Below, piece after piece: positions 15,798-26,593 of a stretch of DNA of 64,000 nt. The stretch spans positions 1-64,000 of the forward strand of contig NZ_JBGCUE010000008.1 of the NCBI RefSeq assembly GCF_041102575.1, in the 5' to 3' direction. This DNA comes from Tenuifilum sp. 4138str (GTDB taxonomy: Bacteria > Bacteroidota > Bacteroidia > Bacteroidales > Tenuifilaceae). The position numbers were made by a program, and so were the translations under genes. The notes beneath the pieces were generated by a model, which saw nothing but the letters and a program-made list of their open reading frames with translations, searched no databases and had not been told where the DNA came from. Each line of letters begins with the position of its first letter. Position 1 is the first letter of the stretch.

Positions 15798-18700
15798 ATG
15801 AAAAGATTAGCATACGTAACATTACTAATCCTTTCAGTTGGCCTTTTCTTGACCTGCCAAGAGTTTGAGATTAAACCAGCGACCAAGGTGGAGACCGGCA
15901 CGGCAACCCCTTTGGCAACCTCCATAACGGTTAACGCCAAAATTATTGAGCTTAGCGGCGAGGGTAATACCGACCATGGGTTCTGCTACGCCACGCACGA
16001 TAATCCTACTGTAAACGATGGTAAATTGAGTAAGGGAATCCCTAAAGTAGGGGATTTTACTGGCGAAATAGATGGCCTTGCTGTAAATACACGTTACTAC
16101 ATCAGAGCCTACTGCAATTCGCAACAAGGTGTTGTTTATGGCAAGTCAGTATCAGTTAAAACTCTTGATGGACAGCCAACTATAACCACAGCTGAGATAA
16201 CAGACATAACCTCTACCTCAGCGGTAAGCGGTGGAAGCATTACCTCCGATGGTGGCGCACCAATTACCGCTCGGGGTGTGGTGTGGAGCACCAGCCAGAA
16301 CCCAACCATTGAAACCAACCTTGGAGTAACCTCCAACGGCACAGGAATAGGCACATTTACCAGTAGCCTAACCAGCCTCCAACCCGGAACGGTTTACTAC
16401 GTTCGGGCCTACGCCACCAACAGCGTGGGCACTGTTTACGGCAACCAGCAAACCTTTACAACACACGATGGTTTACCAGTATTAACCACAGCCGCAGTAA
16501 CCAGCATTACCGCTACCACTGCCACTAGTGGTGGCAATATCACCTCCGATGGCGGTTTTGACATTACCGCCCGGGGCGTGGTTTGGAGTGCATCCGAAAA
16601 CCCCACTACCACAAGTAACCTTGGCGTAACGTCCGACGGTGCTGGCACGGGTAGTTACACCAGTAGCCTAACCAACCTTCAACCCGGCACGGTTTACTAC
16701 GTTCGGGCGTACGCCACCAACAGCGTGGGTACTGCATACGGCAACCAGTTATCATTTACAACACAAGATGGAGTTATTGCCTTAACTACTACTGAAGTGA
16801 CCAGCATAACTCCAACCTCGGCGGTTAGCGGTGGAAGTATTACCTCCGATGGCGGTGCGCCAATTACCGCTCGGGGTATAGTTTGGAGCACAACCGAGAA
16901 CCCAACCACCAGCAGCAACCTTGGCATGACAACCGATGGAACAGGAACGGGAAACTTCAGCAGTAACCTAACGAACCTTCAACCCGGCACGGTTTACTAC
17001 GTTCGTGCGTACGCCACCAACAGCGTGGGGACTATTTACGGCAACCAGCAAACCTTTACCACTCAATACGACCTACCAGAGTTAAACACCACTGCAGTTG
17101 GCAGTATTACCGCCACTACTGCCACCAGTGGTGGCAACATCACCTCCGATGGCGGTTCAACAATTACCGCTAGGGGTGTGGTTTGGAGCACCTCCGAGAA
17201 TCCCACCACCATCAGCAACCTTGGCATGACAACCGATGGAACAGGAACGGGAAACTTCAGCAGTAATCTATCAAACCTCCAACCCGGAATGGTTTACTAC
17301 GTTCGTGCCTACGCCACCAACAGCGTGGGTACTGCTTACGGTAACCAGCTATCGTTTACAACGCAAGATGGAGCTATTACCCTGTCAACTAATGCTGTAA
17401 CCAGCATAGCAGCAACATCTGCCGTTAGCGGTGGAAGTATTACCTCCGATGGCGGTGCGCCAATTAACGCTAGGGGTGTGGTTTGGAGCACCAGTCAGAA
17501 CCCCACCACCAGCAGCAACCTTGGTATGACAACCGATGGAACCGGAACGGGTAGCTTCACAAGTAACCTAGTAAATTTACAACCCGCAACTGTTTATTAT
17601 ATACGTGCATACGCTACCAACAGTGTGGGTACAGTTTACGGTAACCAGCAAACCTTTACCACTCAATGTGACCTGCCAAAATTAAGCACCACTGCAGTTG
17701 GCAGTATTACCGCCACTACCGCCACCAGCGGTGGCAATATCACCTCCGATGGCGGTGCACCAATTACCGCTCGGGGTGTAGTTTGGAGCACAACCGAGAA
17801 CCCCACCACCAGCAACAACCTAGGCATAGCAACCAATGGAACCGGAACGGGTAGCTTCACAAGCAACCTAACGAATTTGCAACCCGGAACGGTTTACTAC
17901 GTTAGGGCGTACGCCACCAACAGCGTGGGAACTGCATACGGCAACCAGCTATCATTTACAACCCAGGATGGAGCTATTACCCTGTCAACTAATGCAGTAA
18001 CCAGCATAACAGCAACATCGGCGGCTAGTGGAGGGAGCATTACCTCCGATGGCGGTGCGCCAATTAACGCTAGGGGTGTGGTTTGGAGCACATTCGAGAA
18101 TCCCACCCTTGAAAGCAACAGTGGTATGACAACCGATGGTGTAGGAACGGGAAACTTCAGCAGTAACCTAACGAATCTTCAACCCGGAACGGTTTACTAC
18201 GTTCGTGCGTACGCCACCAACAGCGTGGGCACTGCATACGGTAACCAGCAAACCTTTACAACACACGATGGTTTGCCAGTATTAACCACAGCCGCAGTAA
18301 CCAGCATAACCCCTACCACTGCCGCTTGTGGTGGCAACATCACCTCCGATGGCGGTTTTGCCATTACCGCCCGGGGTGTGGTTTGGAGCACCTCCGAGAA
18401 CCCCACCACCAGCAGCAACCTTGGCATGACAAACGATGGCACCGGAATGGGTAACTTCAGCAGTAATCTAACGAACCTACAACCCGGCACGGTTTACTAC
18501 GTTCGGGCGTATACTACTAATAGTTACGGAACGCAGTATGGTAACCAGGTTTCTTTTACCACCCCAGTCGATGGCCCAGGAGGAACCATAACCGATGCTG
18601 ACGGTAACACCTATAACACCATTTGGATAAACGGCCGCCAGTGGATGAAGGAGAACCTTAAAACCACCAGGTACAACGATGGTACTGCCATACCGCTGGT

Positions 18701-19172
18701 AACCGACAAAACGGCCTGGGCTGCCCTAAGCACCCCCGCCTACTGCTGGTACAATAACGACCAAACTACCTATGGAAACACCTACGGTGCGCTGTATAAC
18801 TGGTATACCGTAAACACTGGCAACCTCTGCCCCACAGGTTGGCACGTACCCACCGATGCGGAGTGGACAACGCTACTTGATTACGTTGGCGGTGATTCCA
18901 TAGCTGGAACCAAATTAAAGGCAACAAGCGGGTGGTATGTTAATTATGGTATGGGAAATGGTACTGATAACTTTGGTTTCTCTGCACTTCCAGGCGGAGT
19001 ACGCACTGGCGGTTACTTCTCCAGTGAGGGACTCGATGGCCATTGGTGGACTAGTACCGAAGAAGATGTTTCGAACGCTTTGGGCTGGAAAATGATATGG
19101 GATTTAGAGAGAGTGCTCTCCTCAACCGCCTATAAGGAAATGGGTTTTTCAGTTCGTTGTATAAAAGATTAA
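15798..19172 (+). CDS. Repeat lipoprotein with eight 100-residue fibronectin-like repeats and FISUMP domain
   Basis: The 1,124-residue precursor begins with a hydrophobic signal and Cys in LFLTCQEF, a probable lipobox. A diverged first module is followed by eight near-identical 100-residue repeats (DNA period exactly 300 bp, about 16167-18568). Each carries ITSDGG, ITARGVVWS, PGTVYYVRAYATNS and FTT, the pattern of fibronectin-III-like surface modules. The last about 200 residues form a FISUMP domain (DADGNTYNTIWI, WMKENLKTT, LCPTGWHVP, GFSALPGG, SVRCIKD). It is probably anchored in the outer membrane and exported. It follows the caspase gene and has a paralog immediately downstream. Confidence 0.9.
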   Translation: MKRLAYVTLLILSVGLFLTCQEFEIKPATKVETGTATPLATSITVNAKIIELSGEGNTDHGFCYATHDNPTVNDGKLSKGIPKVGDFTGEIDGLAVNTRYYIRAYCNSQQGVVYGKSVSVKTLDGQPTITTAEITDITSTSAVSGGSITSDGGAPITARGVVWSTSQNPTIETNLGVTSNGTGIGTFTSSLTSLQPGTVYYVRAYATNSVGTVYGNQQTFTTHDGLPVLTTAAVTSITATTATSGGNITSDGGFDITARGVVWSASENPTTTSNLGVTSDGAGTGSYTSSLTNLQPGTVYYVRAYATNSVGTAYGNQLSFTTQDGVIALTTTEVTSITPTSAVSGGSITSDGGAPITARGIVWSTTENPTTSSNLGMTTDGTGTGNFSSNLTNLQPGTVYYVRAYATNSVGTIYGNQQTFTTQYDLPELNTTAVGSITATTATSGGNITSDGGSTITARGVVWSTSENPTTISNLGMTTDGTGTGNFSSNLSNLQPGMVYYVRAYATNSVGTAYGNQLSFTTQDGAITLSTNAVTSIAATSAVSGGSITSDGGAPINARGVVWSTSQNPTTSSNLGMTTDGTGTGSFTSNLVNLQPATVYYIRAYATNSVGTVYGNQQTFTTQCDLPKLSTTAVGSITATTATSGGNITSDGGAPITARGVVWSTTENPTTSNNLGIATNGTGTGSFTSNLTNLQPGTVYYVRAYATNSVGTAYGNQLSFTTQDGAITLSTNAVTSITATSAASGGSITSDGGAPINARGVVWSTFENPTLESNSGMTTDGVGTGNFSSNLTNLQPGTVYYVRAYATNSVGTAYGNQQTFTTHDGLPVLTTAAVTSITPTTAACGGNITSDGGFAITARGVVWSTSENPTTSSNLGMTNDGTGMGNFSSNLTNLQPGTVYYVRAYTTNSYGTQYGNQVSFTTPVDGPGGTITDADGNTYNTIWINGRQWMKENLKTTRYNDGTAIPLVTDKTAWAALSTPAYCWYNNDQTTYGNTYGALYNWYTVNTGNLCPTGWHVPTDAEWTTLLDYVGGDSIAGTKLKATSGWYVNYGMGNGTDNFGFSALPGGVRTGGYFSSEGLDGHWWTSTEEDVSNALGWKMIWDLERVLSSTAYKEMGFSVRCIKD
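16167..18568 (+). repeat. Eight tandem 300-bp coding repeats
   Basis: Eight units of exactly 300 bp keep the reading frame and phase throughout. Alternating units are more alike: units ending in GNQQTFTT and GNQLSFTT interleave, suggesting expansion by duplication of unit pairs. Several blocks are identical to the units at 19769-21270. Confidence 0.9.
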
Positions 19173-19390: not shown

Positions 19391-21907
19391 ATGAAAAGTA
19401 TGAAAAGATTAGCATATTTAACAACAATAGTCCTCTCGCTAGGCCTTTTCTTGACCTGCCAAGAGTTTGAGATTAAGCCAGCGACCAAGGTGGAGACCGG
19501 CACGATAACCCCTTTGGCAACCTCCATAACGGTTAACGCCAAAATTATTGAGCTTAGCGGTGAGGGTAACACCGACCATGGGTTTTGCTATGCCACGCAC
19601 GATAACCCTACTGTAAACGATGGTAAATTGAGTAAGGGAATCCCTAAAGTAGGGGATTTTACAGGTGTAATAGATGGCCTTGCTGTAAATACACGTTACT
19701 ACATCAGAGCCTACTGCAATTCGCAACAAGGTGTTGTTTATGGCAAGTCTGTATCAGTTAAAACTCTTGATGGACAGCCAACTATAACCACAGCTGAGAT
19801 AATAGGCATAACCTCTACCTCAGCGGTAAGCGGTGGAAGCATTACCTCCGATGGTGGCGTACCAATTACCGCTCGGGGTGTGGTGTGGAGCACCAGCCAG
19901 AACCCAACCGTAGAAACCAACCTTGGAGTAACCTCCAATGGCACCGGAACAGGCACATTTACCAGTAGCCTAACAAACCTCCAACCCGGAACGGTTTACT
20001 ACGTTCGGGCCTACGCCACCAACAGCGTGGGCACTGTTTACGGCAACCAGCAAACCTTTACAACACACGATGGTTTACCAGTATTAACCACAGCCGCAGT
20101 AACCAGCATTACCGCTACCACTGCCACTAGTGGTGGCAATATCACCTCCGATGGCGGTTTTGACATTACCGCCCGGGGCGTGGTTTGGAGTGCATCCGAA
20201 AACCCCACTACCACAAGTAACCTTGGCGTAACGTCCGACGGTGCTGGCACGGGTAGTTACACCAGTAGCCTAACCAACCTTCAACCCGGCACGGTTTACT
20301 ACGTTCGGGCGTACGCCACCAACAGCGTGGGTACTGCATACGGCAACCAGCTATCGTTTACAACGCAAGATGGAGCTATTACCCTATCAACTAATGCAAT
20401 AACCAGCATAACCGCAACCACGGCGGTTAGCGGTGGAAGTATTACCTCCGATGGCGGTGCACCAATTACCGCTAGGGGTGTGGTTTGGAGCACCAGCCAG
20501 AACCCAACCGTTGAAACCAACCTTGGAGTAACCTCCAACGGCAGCGGAACAGGCACATTTACCAGTAACCTTACGAATTTACAACCCGGAACGGTATACT
20601 ACATTCGGGCCTATGCCACCAACAGCGTGGGCACTACATACGGCAACCAGCTATCGTTTACAACGCAAAATGGAGTTATTACCCTAACTACTACTGAAGT
20701 GACCAGCATAACTGCAACCTCGGCGGTTAGCGGTGGAAGTATTACCTCCGATGGCGGTGCGCCAATTACCGCTCGGGGTATAATTTGGAGCACCAGCCAG
20801 GACCCAACCGTTGAAACCAACCTTGGAGTAACAACCAACGGCACCGGAACAGGCACATTTACCAGTAACCTTACGAATTTACAACCCGTCACGGTTTACT
20901 ACGTTCGGGCGTACGCCACCAACAGCGTGGGTACTGCATACGGCAACCAGCTATCATTTACAACACAAGATGGAGCTATTACCCTGTCAACTAATGCTGT
21001 AACCAGCATAGCAGCAACATCTGCCGTTAGCGGTGGAAGTATTACCTCCGATGGCGGTGCGCCAATTACCGCTCGGGGCGTGGTTTGGAGCACCTCCGAG
21101 AACCCCACCACCAGCAGCAACCTTGGCATGACAGCAGATGGAACCGGAACGGGTAGCTTCACAAGCAACCTAACGAACCTTCAGCCCGGCACGGTTTACT
21201 ACGTTCGCTCGTATGCTACTAATAGTTACGGGACACGGTATGGGAATCAGGTTTCTTTTACAACCCCAATGCCCGATGGCCCCGGAGGAACCATAACTGA
21301 TGCTGACGGTAACACCTATAACACCATTTGGATTGGCGGCCGCCAGTGGATGAAGGAGAACCTTAAAACCACCAAGTACAACGACGGCACCAGCATACCC
21401 CTGGTAACCGACGCAGCAGCCTGGGCTGCCCTAAGCACCCCCGCCTACTGCTGGTACAATAACGACCAAACCACCTATGGAAACACCTACGGTGCGCTGT
21501 ATAACTGGTACGCCGTAAGCACGGGCAAACTCTGCCCCACTGGTTGGCATGTGCCTAGTGATGCCGAGTGGTATGCCATGGAAAACTATGTTGATCCCAC
21601 CATTAACAACCCTAACGCAACTGGCTATCGAGGCACCGATGGCGGTACCAAGTTAAAGGCAACAAGCGGGTGGTATAGTGATGGCAATGGTACTGATGAC
21701 TTTGGCTTCTCGGCCCTTCCGGGTGGCTACCGCGACAGCTACTATGGTTCCTTCTACGGTGTGGGCTACCAGGGTTACTGGTGGAGTAGTACCGAGTCCA
21801 TTGCGACGAATGCCTGTTACCGGTGCATGTTCTACGACTACGGGAATGTGTTCCGCGGCTACAGCTATAAGAGGAACGGGTTCTATGTCCGTTGCGTTAG
21901 GGATTGA
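19391..21907 (+). CDS. Paralogous repeat lipoprotein with five repeats and FISUMP domain
   Basis: The 838-residue paralog of the preceding gene shares its signal/lipobox (LFLTCQEF) and the diverged first module, then has five 100-residue repeats and a FISUMP domain (WIGGRQWMKENLKTT, LCPTGWHVPSD, GFSALPGGYRD, YVRCVRD). The start may be the ATG at 19391 or the one at 19400 that matches the paralog. The FISUMP end differs more from its neighbour than the repeats do. A stretch of roughly 370 bp (about 16377-16749 against 19979-20351) appears identical in both genes, indicating recent duplication or gene conversion. Confidence 0.9.
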   Translation: MKSMKRLAYLTTIVLSLGLFLTCQEFEIKPATKVETGTITPLATSITVNAKIIELSGEGNTDHGFCYATHDNPTVNDGKLSKGIPKVGDFTGVIDGLAVNTRYYIRAYCNSQQGVVYGKSVSVKTLDGQPTITTAEIIGITSTSAVSGGSITSDGGVPITARGVVWSTSQNPTVETNLGVTSNGTGTGTFTSSLTNLQPGTVYYVRAYATNSVGTVYGNQQTFTTHDGLPVLTTAAVTSITATTATSGGNITSDGGFDITARGVVWSASENPTTTSNLGVTSDGAGTGSYTSSLTNLQPGTVYYVRAYATNSVGTAYGNQLSFTTQDGAITLSTNAITSITATTAVSGGSITSDGGAPITARGVVWSTSQNPTVETNLGVTSNGSGTGTFTSNLTNLQPGTVYYIRAYATNSVGTTYGNQLSFTTQNGVITLTTTEVTSITATSAVSGGSITSDGGAPITARGIIWSTSQDPTVETNLGVTTNGTGTGTFTSNLTNLQPVTVYYVRAYATNSVGTAYGNQLSFTTQDGAITLSTNAVTSIAATSAVSGGSITSDGGAPITARGVVWSTSENPTTSSNLGMTADGTGTGSFTSNLTNLQPGTVYYVRSYATNSYGTRYGNQVSFTTPMPDGPGGTITDADGNTYNTIWIGGRQWMKENLKTTKYNDGTSIPLVTDAAAWAALSTPAYCWYNNDQTTYGNTYGALYNWYAVSTGKLCPTGWHVPSDAEWYAMENYVDPTINNPNATGYRGTDGGTKLKATSGWYSDGNGTDDFGFSALPGGYRDSYYGSFYGVGYQGYWWSSTESIATNACYRCMFYDYGNVFRGYSYKRNGFYVRCVRD

Positions 21908-22066: not shown

Positions 22067-24463
22067 TTACCGAATCATGTTGCCAAGCTTTATTCCAAAG
22101 TAAACTGTTCGTGGCGATGTGGGGCCGTAAATGTACGATGGATCCCTATCAATACCAACATCAAAATCCTTTTGGTAGGAGTTGAAAATATTCTTTACCC
22201 CACCGAATAGCTGAAGCGTTTTACCCTCGAGCTTGATGTTATAGGTTAGCTTTACCCCTACATCATAAAAGTCAGGTGTTGAGCGGAGTTCCCCTGCATC
22301 GGGATTGGTATTTGGCCCAAAGTAGGGGGCAAGCATTGGGCCTGTATATGTGCCCGATACCGATAGACATAAATCCTTTACAAAGTCCCAGTCGAGCATT
22401 AGGTAGCCATATTGCTTGGGAGTACGAAAGAACTCACGCGTGTTAAACTCCTGGGGGGTATCGTAAAGCGATTCCTGTAGGGTAAAACCCGCGGTAAGTG
22501 AAAAGTCCTTAAACGATTTGATTTTGGTTTCAAGGTTTATCCCCTTAACCGCTGCACCATCGGTGGCATTGCGACGGGTGTAAATTACCGTTCCGTTTTC
22601 GTCGGGTGCACCTATCTCGTTATAGAATGGATTTTGTAGGCGTGTATAAAAGATCTCAGCCAAAAAGCCGATAAAAAAGTTCCCCATTTCCCGGTTTGCG
22701 TCAGCTGAGAGCATAAAGCTGTGGCTGGTTTCCTGCTTTAGGTTTGGATCGTTCCTGTTGAATACCTGACGGGCACCGGAGGTTTCCACATGCAAGTCCT
22801 CATCAAAGATCTGTGGAGCACGGTAGCCCTGTGAGTACGATACTCTTGTCTGTATCCACGGAAGCGCATTGTACATTATGCTCAGCCGTGGCACAAGCAC
22901 CAATCCTTTTTTTATTCCATTTTCCGGATGGGCAAAATCTTCAATACGGTACTGTTCAGCCCTCAAGCCAACCGAAGTTTTCCATTTCCCAATGCCCATG
23001 TCGTGCTGGGCAAAAATTCCCGATGTCAAAAGTGATTGGTCCGAAACGGTTGTGTTTTTAACCTGGGGGAAACTTACTCCTAACGTATCGCCCGTTATTG
23101 GATCAATATCAAAAGTGGGACTGGTTAAATCGCGGTAAGCCAGCTTGGTGTCGTTAAGGTTGCTGCCGGTAAGTTCAAGTCCAGCGGTCAGGGTCGATAG
23201 CCCAATAATGGCCTTGTACTGTGCCCCGGTGTTATAGGTAAAATCGAATGAGTTGCCGTAACTGCTCAGCGACTGATTTGCCCCATAGTATGAGTCGCGG
23301 TTCAGGTACTGTGCTGAGGCAAAGATCGAGAGTAAGTCGAATTGCCTGAAGTAACGCTCAAAGATAAGCGAACCTGCACGCATGTCGTGCTTAACAGCTT
23401 CGGCTACATCGCGTTCGTGCAACGGGTAATCCTGTTTGTTTCCACCATCGCGTTTCTCCCGAATAGTGAAAATGTCGGCGCTAATTTTACCTCTCTCGCC
23501 AACGCGTTGCCAGAATCGGGTGCCAAGGCTTACGTTGCTCATGGGTGCAAGTTCCGAGTAACCATCGCCATTGGCATCGAACATGTTCCTGTCGCGAGTA
23601 AACCCGTAAATGGTTATGCCTGTACGGTTGTTTGTAGCAACAAATGTGTTGTTAAAGTTAACGGTATAGTCGCTGATAGGCCCATTTGAACGTGCCATCC
23701 CAGTTCCAATCAGCGAACCCGATGCCCCAACCTCATAGGAGTTTATGCTGGCATCTTTTAAAATGATGTTTATTGTTCCGGCTATAGCATTGCTACCATA
23801 AAGCACCGATCCACCACCACGCACAACCTCAACACGGTCAATCATGTTTGCAGGGAGCAGTTCCAGCCCGTAAACGCCTGCCAGCCCGCTAAAAATTGGC
23901 CGACTATTGATGAGTATTTGGCTGTAGGGGCCCTCCATGCCATTTATGCGAACCTGGTTGAATCCGCAGTTCTGGCAATCGTTCTCAAGCCTTAGGCCTG
24001 GCATAAAGTTTAGGGCTTCACCAACCACAACCGATTGTGTTGAAGCGAAAAGTGCAGGTGCAATGGTGTTTACCATTACTGGGGCTTGGGTACGCTTAAG
24101 CATACCCCTATCGGCCGAAACCACAACCTCATCAAGGTGTAAGAGGTCCTCCTGCAATTCAATTTCCACGGTTTTCCTGTCGGTTTCATCTATATCAACC
24201 TTGATTTCGGCAGTTTTAAATCCCACTGCGCTAACCGTAATGGTATAAGTTCCCTTTTTCAGGTCGCAAAGTGCAAAGCTGCCCGCTTCGTCGGTTACAG
24301 TCCCTATTGTAGTGCCTTTAACAATGACATTTGCAAAGGGTAGGGCTTTACCATTGCTCATAACTGTTCCGTTTAACTTGCAAACTTCCGATAGTTCATT
24401 TGCCCTTAGTGCGATATGATTGATGTATATGAATACCAATAGTATTGGTAAATACTTTTTCAT
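22067..24463 (-). CDS. TonB-dependent outer-membrane receptor
   Basis: The 798-residue protein has a signal peptide, a carboxypeptidase-regulatory-like beta sandwich (LNGTVMSNGKALPFANVIVKG, about 30-110), a plug domain (DEVVVSADRG, then RINGMEGPYSQILINSRP and VEVVRGGGSVLYGSNAIAGTINI) and a long beta barrel ending in YFGIKLG. This is the architecture of Cir/FepA-type receptors for metal chelates or heme rather than SusC, since no SusD follows. The next gene upstream, 128 bp away on the same strand, encodes a small His-rich protein behind a Fur-family-like operator. Metal uptake is therefore the best guess; the ligand cannot be read from the sequence. Confidence 0.9.
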   Translation of the reverse strand: MKKYLPILLVFIYINHIALRANELSEVCKLNGTVMSNGKALPFANVIVKGTTIGTVTDEAGSFALCDLKKGTYTITVSAVGFKTAEIKVDIDETDRKTVEIELQEDLLHLDEVVVSADRGMLKRTQAPVMVNTIAPALFASTQSVVVGEALNFMPGLRLENDCQNCGFNQVRINGMEGPYSQILINSRPIFSGLAGVYGLELLPANMIDRVEVVRGGGSVLYGSNAIAGTINIILKDASINSYEVGASGSLIGTGMARSNGPISDYTVNFNNTFVATNNRTGITIYGFTRDRNMFDANGDGYSELAPMSNVSLGTRFWQRVGERGKISADIFTIREKRDGGNKQDYPLHERDVAEAVKHDMRAGSLIFERYFRQFDLLSIFASAQYLNRDSYYGANQSLSSYGNSFDFTYNTGAQYKAIIGLSTLTAGLELTGSNLNDTKLAYRDLTSPTFDIDPITGDTLGVSFPQVKNTTVSDQSLLTSGIFAQHDMGIGKWKTSVGLRAEQYRIEDFAHPENGIKKGLVLVPRLSIMYNALPWIQTRVSYSQGYRAPQIFDEDLHVETSGARQVFNRNDPNLKQETSHSFMLSADANREMGNFFIGFLAEIFYTRLQNPFYNEIGAPDENGTVIYTRRNATDGAAVKGINLETKIKSFKDFSLTAGFTLQESLYDTPQEFNTREFFRTPKQYGYLMLDWDFVKDLCLSVSGTYTGPMLAPYFGPNTNPDAGELRSTPDFYDVGVKLTYNIKLEGKTLQLFGGVKNIFNSYQKDFDVGIDRDPSYIYGPTSPRTVYFGIKLGNMIR

Positions 24464-24590: not shown

Positions 24591-24938
24591 TTATACAAAT
24601 GGGGGTGCCCTATTAGGTTTAAGCTGTAATGCTACTTGAAGGTGGTGTACTGCTGTTTTTAGATGTATTCGGGTAACAGCAATTTCGGGATTATAAACCT
24701 GGTTTTGTGAGCTTTCCTCGAATTGTTTTGCCTGGGCAAGCAATACAATTTCCGATAAGGTATGCTTATGGTTTTTAACGGGCTGCTTATCGGATTGTGT
24801 ATCGTATGGGTGTGAGTGGACTACCCATTGTCCGTTAATTCGGTGAACGTGGCTGTAGCTGCTGTAAATAAGAATATTCCCCAGCGCAATTATTACCAGG
24901 AGTATCGATATAAGCAGTCTTCTAGTACTTTTCACCAT
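24591..24938 (-). CDS. Small membrane-anchored His-rich protein
   Basis: This 115-residue protein is not recognised as a named family. It has one N-terminal membrane helix or signal (residues about 8-26). Then comes a His-rich segment with HVH, HSHPY and HKH between residues 30 and 60, and more His near the C-terminus (IHLKTAVHHLQ). Clustered His suggests metal binding. It precedes the TonB receptor on the same strand and has a good promoter and operator upstream, so the pair may form a metal-responsive unit. The start ATG at 24938 is about 19 bp after the predicted transcription start. Confidence 0.7.
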   Translation of the reverse strand: MVKSTRRLLISILLVIIALGNILIYSSYSHVHRINGQWVVHSHPYDTQSDKQPVKNHKHTLSEIVLLAQAKQFEESSQNQVYNPEIAVTRIHLKTAVHHLQVALQLKPNRAPPFV

Positions 24939-24963: not shown

Positions 24964-24993
24964 CAAAGGTAACTTTAGAATTATTCTAAACAA
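24964..24993 (-). promoter_or_regulatory. Promoter of the His-rich protein/TonB receptor unit
   Basis: On the minus strand a -33-like TTG (24991-24993) is separated by 19 nt from TACCTTTG (24964-24971), a perfect match to the Bacteroidota -7 element TAnnTTTG. The palindrome at 24974-24990 fills the spacer. Confidence 0.65.
24974..24990. promoter_or_regulatory. Fur/PerR-type operator candidate
   Basis: TTTAGAAT-T-ATTCTAAA is a perfect 8-1-8 inverted repeat. Its inner part TTAGAATtATTCTAA has the 7-1-7 geometry of Fur-family boxes and differs from the PerR consensus TTATAATnATTATAA by one symmetric base per arm. It lies between -33 and -7 of the minus-strand promoter and 63 bp upstream of the divergent rubrerythrin start, so one repressor could control both sides. 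Which Fur-family member binds is not shown. Confidence 0.6.
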
Positions 24994-25053
24994 TGGTTTA
25001 TTGGTGTTTTTTGCGTATTTTAGCAAAACTATAAACATAAACCAGTAATAGCA

Positions 25054-25632
25054 ATGGAAAAGAGCATAAAGGGAACAAAAACCGAACAGAACCTACTAAA
25101 GGCTTTTGCCGGTGAATCGCAAGCAAAGAACCGGTACACCTTTTTCTCAAAGGTTGCCAAGGAGGAAGGCTATGAACAAATAGCCGAGTTGTTCATGATA
25201 ACCGCCATGCAGGAAGAGCAACATGCCAAACAGTTTTTCAAATTCCTTGAGGGTGGCATGGTTGAAATAACTGCAAGTTATCCTGCAGGAGTTATTGGCA
25301 CTACTGCCGAGAACTTAAGGGCTGCCGCCATGGGTGAAAACGAAGAGTGGACAAGCCTATACCCTGAATTTGCTAAGATAGCCGAGGAAGAGGGTTTTCC
25401 AAAGATCGCAACGGCTTTTAAATTGATTGCAAAGGTTGAAAAAGAGCATGAGGAGCGTTACCGCAAACTGCTTGAACGGGTTGAGAGCGGAACTGTTTTT
25501 GAGCGCGAGGAGGAAATTGAATGGGTTTGTCGTAAATGCGGTTACGTTCATAAAGGGAAAAAGGCTCTAAAGAATTGCCCTGTTTGTAACCATCCTCAGG
25601 CATACTTTGAGGGAAAAGCTGATAATTACTAG
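25054..25632 (+). CDS. rbr: Rubrerythrin
   Basis: The 192-residue classical rubrerythrin has an N-terminal diiron four-helix domain ([47 protein letters not shown]) and a C-terminal rubredoxin-like domain with CRKCG and CPVCN holding one iron. It reduces hydrogen peroxide using electrons from rubredoxin or NAD(P)H-linked donors, protecting anaerobes. It is monocistronic, followed by a strong terminator, and divergent from the His-rich/TonB unit across a Fur/PerR-like palindrome. This fits peroxide-controlled expression, although the control itself is inference. Confidence 0.95.
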
Positions 25633-26139: not shown

Positions 26140-26232
26140 TTAGCTGGTAGTTGACAGCTGTTGGTTGATAGTTGATAGTTGGTAGTTGATAGTTGATAGT
26201 TGTTAGTTGATAGTTGTTGGTTGTTGGTTTAA
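26140..26232. repeat. Low-complexity GTTGATAGT repeats
   Basis: About eight degenerate units of (G)TTGATAGTT / TTGGTAG follow directly after the response regulator stop. Similar text (gttgacagttgatggttaatagttgatag) occurs at 53123-53150. No structure or gene is apparent. Confidence 0.6.
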
Positions 26233-26593
26233 GAGTGTCCATTCCCAATCATTCCGAATCATTCCGAGTATTCCGACTCATTCCGATTCACTCCCGCTAA
26301 AAGTCACATATTAACGTTTAACGGCTCACGGCTCACGGCTCACGGTTCACGGACTCAAACTTCCTCTAACTTCCTCTAACTCCATCATATTCTGTCTATT
26401 CCGACTCATTCCGACTCATTCCGAGCATTCCGACTCATTTTCGTTGGTTTTACTTTTCACTTTTCACTTTTCACTATTCACTTTTCCTCTAACTTCCTCT
26501 AACTCCCTCATATTCTCAATTCTTCTTTTCACGTTTCACGGACTTCTTTTCATTTTTCTTTCTTACCTTTATACCTCAAATTACATCTACGCC
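26233..26593. repeat. Block of composite low-complexity repeats upstream of DUF2520 gene
   Basis: This gene-free stretch is a chain of short repeat families: CATTCCGAAT/CATTCCGACT units (26242-26296); four degenerate copies of ACGGCTC (26321-26353); then CTTCCTCTAACTTCCTCTAACTCC, a linker and ATTCCGACTCATTCCGA units (26354-26440); then CTTTTCA repeats (26450-26535). The 26354-26440 part recurs at 48226-48300 and inverted at 836-935. The open frame through part of it is not real; the downstream gene starts at 26594. Confidence 0.65.

Follow-up and report, generated by a model that had tools for sequence, protein, structure and literature searches.

A perfect palindrome lies in the promoter of a putative metal-uptake unit in Tenuifilum sp. 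4138str, beside a divergently transcribed rubrerythrin gene. This arrangement raises the question of which regulator reads the site and which of its two neighbors it serves. The original prediction assigned it to one Fur-family repressor that controls both directions and links peroxide defence to metal uptake. We examined the site within a 64,000-nucleotide stretch of DNA (the window) and in related genomes, and we propose that TTTAGAATTATTCTAAA is very probably a Fur operator, through which this iron repressor would act on an operon encoding a His-rich protein and a TonB receptor.

The palindrome and the promoter that contains it

The predicted Fur box TTTAGAATTATTCTAAA at 24974-24990 is, as first reported, a perfect 8-1-8 palindrome; it contains an odd-centred 7-1-7 inverted repeat, the Fur-family core TTAGAATTATTCTAA. 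Promoters of the -33/-7 type in Bacteroidota follow the consensus TTG and TAnnTTTG, and the minus strand reads TTG (24991-24993), a spacer of 19 bases (24972-24990), and the -7 element TACCTTTG (24964-24971). This promoter type is named in PMC5609570, a study of Riemerella anatipestifer. The palindrome had been described as filling the spacer exactly; it does abut TTG, but it occupies 17 of the 19 bases and leaves two before TACCTTTG.

Placed between these two elements, the box stands ahead of a TonB-receptor operon on the minus strand. The gene nearest the box (24591-24938) encodes a His-rich protein of 115 aa, in whose sequence a hydrophobic N-terminus is followed by the motifs HxH, HSHPY, HxH, and RAPP. 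Beyond it lies a TonB-dependent receptor (22067-24463) with profile matches to CarboxypepD_reg_2, Plug, and beta-barrel domains, which is linked to the box only via the His-rich gene. Among NCBIfam models, haem and siderophore receptors match this protein best, all 25 matches listed being below the cut-off, and its one PDB relative, 9gbc, matches residues 31-238 only. The plus-strand gene at 25054-25632, divergent from the uptake unit, is a rubrerythrin as originally stated, since its product matches Pfam PF02915 (E 1.2e-29) and NCBIfam NF045767 (294.7 bits against a cut-off of 200).

The His-rich protein of the window has no match in Pfam or NCBIfam. It belongs to a small family, defined by HxH, HSHP, HxH, and a RAPP end, that comprises the window protein and loci L066-L091 and L096; some members have weak NCBIfam matches that are apparently spurious. 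Nine members share H30, H32, H41, H43, P44, H57, H59, and a C-terminal RxPP. Most units continue with a TonB receptor gene; in L072, L081, L086, and L089 the following gene is, by eye, efflux-adaptor-like. These gene neighbors suggest a metal role for the family, and the operon is presumed to function in metal uptake, probably of iron or haem.

A bare 8-1-8 repeat is common, and the rare part is its sequence together with its place. The window holds three perfect repeats of this form, against a mean of 0.95 in 20 Markov shuffles. Allowing up to three mismatches, the TTTAGAATTATTCTAAA 17-mer occurs at two places in the window, where 0.61 are expected. The strict pattern TTG-N19-TANNTTTG has three matches on both strands of the window, one of which is the promoter described here, and of the three repeats only TTTAGAATTATTCTAAA falls inside such a match.

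Published Fur boxes and recurrence in related genomes

The closest published counterpart is the 19-base Fur-box consensus of R. anatipestifer, ATTTAGAATTATTCTAAAT, itself a prediction (PMC5609570), of which the TTTAGAATTATTCTAAA 17-mer forms the core, with the inner 17 of 19 bases identical. This paper was the sole match in a text search for the palindrome, within the texts searched. R. anatipestifer likewise has -33/-7 promoters, and its boxes precede outer-membrane iron and haem receptors (HmuR and an Fe3+-dicitrate receptor); four promoters carrying putative boxes were retarded by purified Fur in gel-shift assays. Individual boxes there diverge widely from the consensus (PMC5609570, Table 5). 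The window box differs in its outermost bases, which are C...C; in having a divergent rubrerythrin alongside; and in being a predicted site, whereas four promoters were shifted in R. anatipestifer. A second Bacteroidota regulator of the Fur family, PgFur of Porphyromonas gingivalis, likewise controls a haem-uptake operon; it is assigned to a divergent subfamily and reportedly did not bind the E. coli Fur box (PMC6613475).

The exact 17-mer, with its centre left free, is present at 17 sites, distributed over 14 of 60 related genomes (a list that includes the host genome, G000), against 0 for the reversed control in the same 60. All 17 sites were inspected, and Pfam was run on ten neighbors. Three sites lie ahead of the His-rich/receptor unit (G000, G005, and G045), two ahead of a superoxide dismutase (G016 by Pfam, G010 by eye), and one each ahead of a di-haem cytochrome c peroxidase (G035), an OsmC protein (G001), and a DUF438/hemerythrin protein (G047). 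Further sites lie upstream of genes for a 2Fe-2S thioredoxin-like subunit (G035), a DUF255 thioredoxin-like protein (G039), an aldehyde dehydrogenase (G019), a TPR protein (G008), and a protein with no Pfam match (G032). For the remaining four (G019, G024, G031, and G047), there is no clear target, or the site falls inside a reading frame or at its end.

Scanning genome contigs for a box embedded in a promoter (TTG-N0-4-box-N4-8-TTTG) matched 107 genome stretches, two of them in records titled as Proteobacteria (L208 and L288). Two others correspond to the window locus itself in related genomes, namely L234 (Bacteroidales bacterium Bact_07, treated as one record with G005) and L239 (Bacteroidales bacterium Gw_SlDig_bin_127). 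A downstream ORF of at least 40 aa was present in 100 of the 107 loci (77/80 and 23/27), leaving seven without one. FeoB_N was found in 45 of these 100 ORFs (34/77 and 11/23) and the TonB Plug domain in 20 (14/77 and 6/23); the other products include two iron-sulphur carrier ATPases and one each of a haem peroxidase, a glutamyl-tRNA reductase, and an imelysin. Because the pattern set was defined by box and promoter and not by gene function, this enrichment for iron uptake is informative, although the FeoB cases come mainly from one genus, Polaribacter, and therefore represent few independent events. Where the target is feoB, a small ORF that looks FeoA-like by eye separates it from the box.

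The geometry recurs as well. Among the 80 of the 107 pattern loci for which spacing was measured, across all taxa, TTG abuts the box in 70, as it does in the window; of the 49 without Polaribacter in their record titles, 39 show this register. The distance from box to TTTG is 6 in the window and 7-8 in 69 of the 80 loci, the pattern having allowed 4-8. The promoter-embedded feoAB boxes, mostly from Polaribacter, thus resemble the window in that TTG abuts TTTAGAATNATTCTAAA and a -7 element follows, and differ in their target, which is FeoAB there and a TonB receptor operon in the window. Directly behind a promoter-embedded Fur box, five Flavobacteriales loci encode short peptides (about 50 aa) that contain a run of lysines, with cysteines after it in at least four (L218:5291-5440, L244:2456-2605, L247:3004-3150, L249:2236-2379, and L266:5028-5180); they apparently form a small family of Fur-controlled peptides.

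For scoring, we built a Fur matrix from 17 loci (10 distinct boxes) picked from the 28 readable of 30 fur loci; since these boxes were chosen by their likeness to the query core, the matrix favours the query and is biased toward T. The window box scores 21.4 bits. A genome-wide motif scan had been suggested as a check, and its outcome was divided: in the host genome, the loose 15-mer (up to two mismatches) is barely enriched, with 35 sites against 30 for the reversed control, whereas the exact 17-mer in the 60 relatives gave the count of 17 against 0. One exact 15-mer of the host genome sits in a terminator-like hairpin. The accompanying expectation of further sites near redox or metal genes was borne out by weaker ones: the genome encodes Fur, and degenerate related boxes lie upstream of its own fur (17.6 bits) and feoAB (a PF07664 match; Fur-type site TTTAGATCGATTTTAAG, 15.5 bits). 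A degenerate related box also lies upstream of fur in relatives. Against a Fur assignment, host-genome sites scoring close to 21.4 also precede genes without an evident iron link, by eye an ECF sigma gene (20.2) and a lipoprotein (21.0). Within 300 bp upstream of the genome's 26 TonB-plug proteins, one site, a weak one (15.3, L185), exceeded the 99% random level. Fur-type palindromes were also noted ahead of an operon and a gene that by eye are RnfB-like (G000:C14:73494-73510, 19.4 bits) and NrfH-like (G000:C1:105464-105480, 19.8 bits), respectively, and that are possible further redox targets.

There is strong support for a Fur-family operator overlying a metal-type uptake promoter. Within that family, Fur is the most likely regulator, on the strength of the R. 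anatipestifer consensus core, the siting at feoAB and TonB receptors elsewhere, and a contrast with the perR box at position -6 that is described below. When iron is available, a Fur dimer at 24974-24990, between the -33 TTG and the -7 TACCTTTG, would exclude RNA polymerase; when iron is scarce, Fur would leave and the His-rich protein/TonB receptor operon would be made. Binding by the Fur protein encoded on contig C14, repression, and the iron signal we infer from what is established about Fur and from the gel shifts in R. anatipestifer. The site is new and the operator type is already known, an otherwise standard iron operator in a standard promoter. What it adds is that a small His-rich family, whose window member has no Pfam or NCBIfam model, is placed together with its TonB receptor under likely Fur control.

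The uptake unit and the divergent rubrerythrin

The same Fur operator might act in both directions, so that iron limitation would raise the uptake unit and the rubrerythrin together. This extension is compatible with Fur control of the uptake unit, and we consider it possible, though doubtful. The sequence offers a weak candidate promoter for rubrerythrin on the plus strand (24994-25023), consisting of TGG (24994-24996), N19, and TATTTTAG (25016-25023). Three bases separate the box from its -33 element, the two -33 elements stand back to back, and the TATTTTAG block is retained in L239 and L234. A role for Fur at this candidate promoter is therefore geometrically possible: a Fur footprint would reach the presumed -33 region of rubrerythrin and may also lower its expression. 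The order of receptor, His-rich gene, and divergent rubrerythrin is retained in G001, G002, G004 (where rubrerythrin is broken), and G005, and that of the divergent His-rich gene and rubrerythrin also in L239, a further point in favor of control in both directions.

The distribution of the box speaks against it. Rubrerythrin was matched in 53 of the 60 genomes; 30 loci were taken, and the five without a start were dropped, leaving 25 upstream regions. The exact box was present in 2 of these (G000 and G005), two more were marginal (14.6 and 14.5 against 14.3 at the 99% random level), and 21 fell below that level. The latter include G001 and G002 of the same genus, whose rubrerythrins share 95% and 94% protein identity with that of the window. 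Within the genus, the box was found in the gap between the His-rich gene and rubrerythrin in G000, G005, and L239 only, and it is absent ahead of the homologous unit in G001, G002, and G004, which tells against the Fur reading of the uptake promoter as well; in G004, only 9 of the 17 box positions match. In L239 and L234 the box is identical at 17/17 positions, with the rest of the gap matching at 90/98 and 75/98, respectively, a conservation that favors the Fur reading. In G004 (G004:C41:21246-21819), the rubrerythrin adjoining the missing box is split by stop codons, which could reflect a pseudogene or an assembly error.

On the other side of the gap, 27 His-rich units were scored, 26 found by protein and L096 found via its box and hence not independent. 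Four units (window, G005, G019, and G045) exceeded the 99% random level, a count that includes the window itself and L096; five, where about one is expected, lay between the 95% and 99% levels, and 18 were below. The box recurs in this way ahead of the His-rich/receptor unit in two other genera: G019 carries an 18.0-bit box that overlaps the -33 element, and G045 carries the exact box, overlapping the -7 element. In both, no rubrerythrin was seen alongside in the locus examined. Given this recurrence and the 21 of 25 rubrerythrin regions below the 99% level, the box appears to belong primarily to the uptake unit and to be readily gained or lost.

Fur, PerR, and other candidate regulators

The host genome has seven Fur-family matches. 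Fur itself (C14:37693-38163) adjoins an ORF that reads, by eye, as adenylosuccinate synthetase. A PerR-like protein (C11:72075-72515), whose best NCBIfam match is below the cut-off, is encoded in an operon with, by eye, a ferritin-like protein and a peroxiredoxin. Five paralogs (L016-L020) lie within about 26 kb on C3 (C3:56752-85957), some beside heavy-metal RND efflux genes recognized by eye; two of them, L018 and L019, have identical ORF sets, which suggests a recent duplication. NCBIfam fails to separate Fur from PerR for the C14 protein (82.2 bits on the Fur model and 80.8 on the PerR model, both below cut-off), so we call it Fur because of its context, the box at its own gene, and the contrast with C11.

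In Bacillus subtilis, the Fur, PerR, and Zur boxes share a 7-1-7 consensus, with the half-sites TGATAAT for Fur and TTATAAT for PerR. These three boxes are described as highly similar to one another (PMC4324032). The window box has the same symmetry and a half-site of its own, TTAGAAT; in B. subtilis, too, the family members are distinguished by few half-site positions.

It is improbable that the window palindrome is a PerR box, through which the C11 PerR would repress the uptake unit and rubrerythrin and release both under peroxide. Such a reading could draw on the operon context of the PerR-like gene, on the rubrerythrin next to the box, and on 4 of the 17 exact sites, which are those at two superoxide dismutases, the di-haem cytochrome c peroxidase, and OsmC. 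The perR operator of the host's family, however, is different. Motif discovery on 20 of 24 perR upstream regions, with no motif given, returned TAAATAAGAATnATTCC, and on 23 of 28 fur upstream regions, with no motif prior, TTnAATTnAnTCTAAAT, which lay at -21 to -33 in 15 of the 23. The family's perR operon is preceded by TAAGAATNATTCYTA or a close form, with the best match at -20 or -21 in 12 of 18 loci; L140 shows it at -21 on visual inspection, and the remaining loci deviate. At position -6, T occupies 20 of 20 half-sites in 10 distinct fur boxes, whereas the 22 half-sites of 11 distinct perR boxes have A in 20 and G in two; the perR boxes were also selected by likeness to the query core, yet still show A. 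The window box carries T in both half-sites and differs there from TAAGAATNATTCYTA.

Scores on the two matrices agree with this contrast. The PerR matrix was built from 14 of 25 loci (11 distinct boxes), which score 16.4-24.5 on it and no higher than 4.6 on the Fur matrix; against its 21.4 on the Fur matrix, the window box still reaches 11.6 bits on the PerR matrix, a point for PerR. The same architecture ahead of feoAB and TonB receptors counts against PerR, as does the presence of the exact box at only 2 of the 25 rubrerythrin upstream regions, so that it is not conserved ahead of this peroxide-defence gene. We therefore rejected a PerR box as the main reading, on the ground that the conserved perR operator differs; of the original Fur/PerR-like description, the Fur-type half stands, with its consensus core and T at -6, and the PerR half does not. 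The PerR-box pattern itself gave 20 strand matches (forward and reverse) in the 60 relatives, against 20 in the control, and amounts to 15 distinct sites, six of them perR promoters. With a count equal to the control, the pattern alone defines no regulon.

Returning to Fur as the preferred regulator, a wider scenario can be put forward tentatively. In the host's family, the Fur and PerR palindromes would stand one base per half-site apart (T versus A/G at -6), and a Fur box would have arisen in a small clade of the genus between the His-rich/TonB-receptor unit and rubrerythrin. A peroxide-defence gene would thereby have come to lie next to an iron-controlled promoter or under iron control itself, with sister species keeping the same gene order without the box. 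The base at -6 would offer a simple rule by which Fur and PerR sites of uncultured Bacteroidales could be told apart.

Use of the box by one of the five C3 paralogs is very unlikely and was rejected: they are Fur-family proteins of the same genome, but they are located among metal efflux genes, and in the 200 bp upstream of each, no site exceeds 8.8 on the Fur matrix and there is no perfect inverted repeat (arms of at least 6, centre of 0-2 bases). A DtxR/MntR operator was rejected as well, because the genome has no match to such a repressor: the C-terminal domain PF02742 gave 0 matches, whereas 11 of 14 genomes were positive in the control search, and this absence also favors Fur. That the palindrome arose by chance in AT-rich promoter sequence is very unlikely, since, even if a perfect 8-1-8 repeat is expected about once per window and the host genome shows scarcely any enrichment of the loose motif, exact sites in relatives outnumber the reversed control by 17 to 0, the box is fully conserved in two further genomes whose flanks have changed, and it is identical to the published Fur consensus core.

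Two other features of the window were noted in passing. Positions 15798-19172 and 19391-21907 encode two long neighboring surface-type proteins, each built of near-identical repeats; by eye their C-terminal ends are alike, and the pair probably goes back to a recent tandem duplication. The intergenic stretch 26140-26560 contains short degenerate repeats of the ATTCCGACTC, TTGATAGT, and CACGGCT types, and similar repeats also occur upstream of perR (L015).
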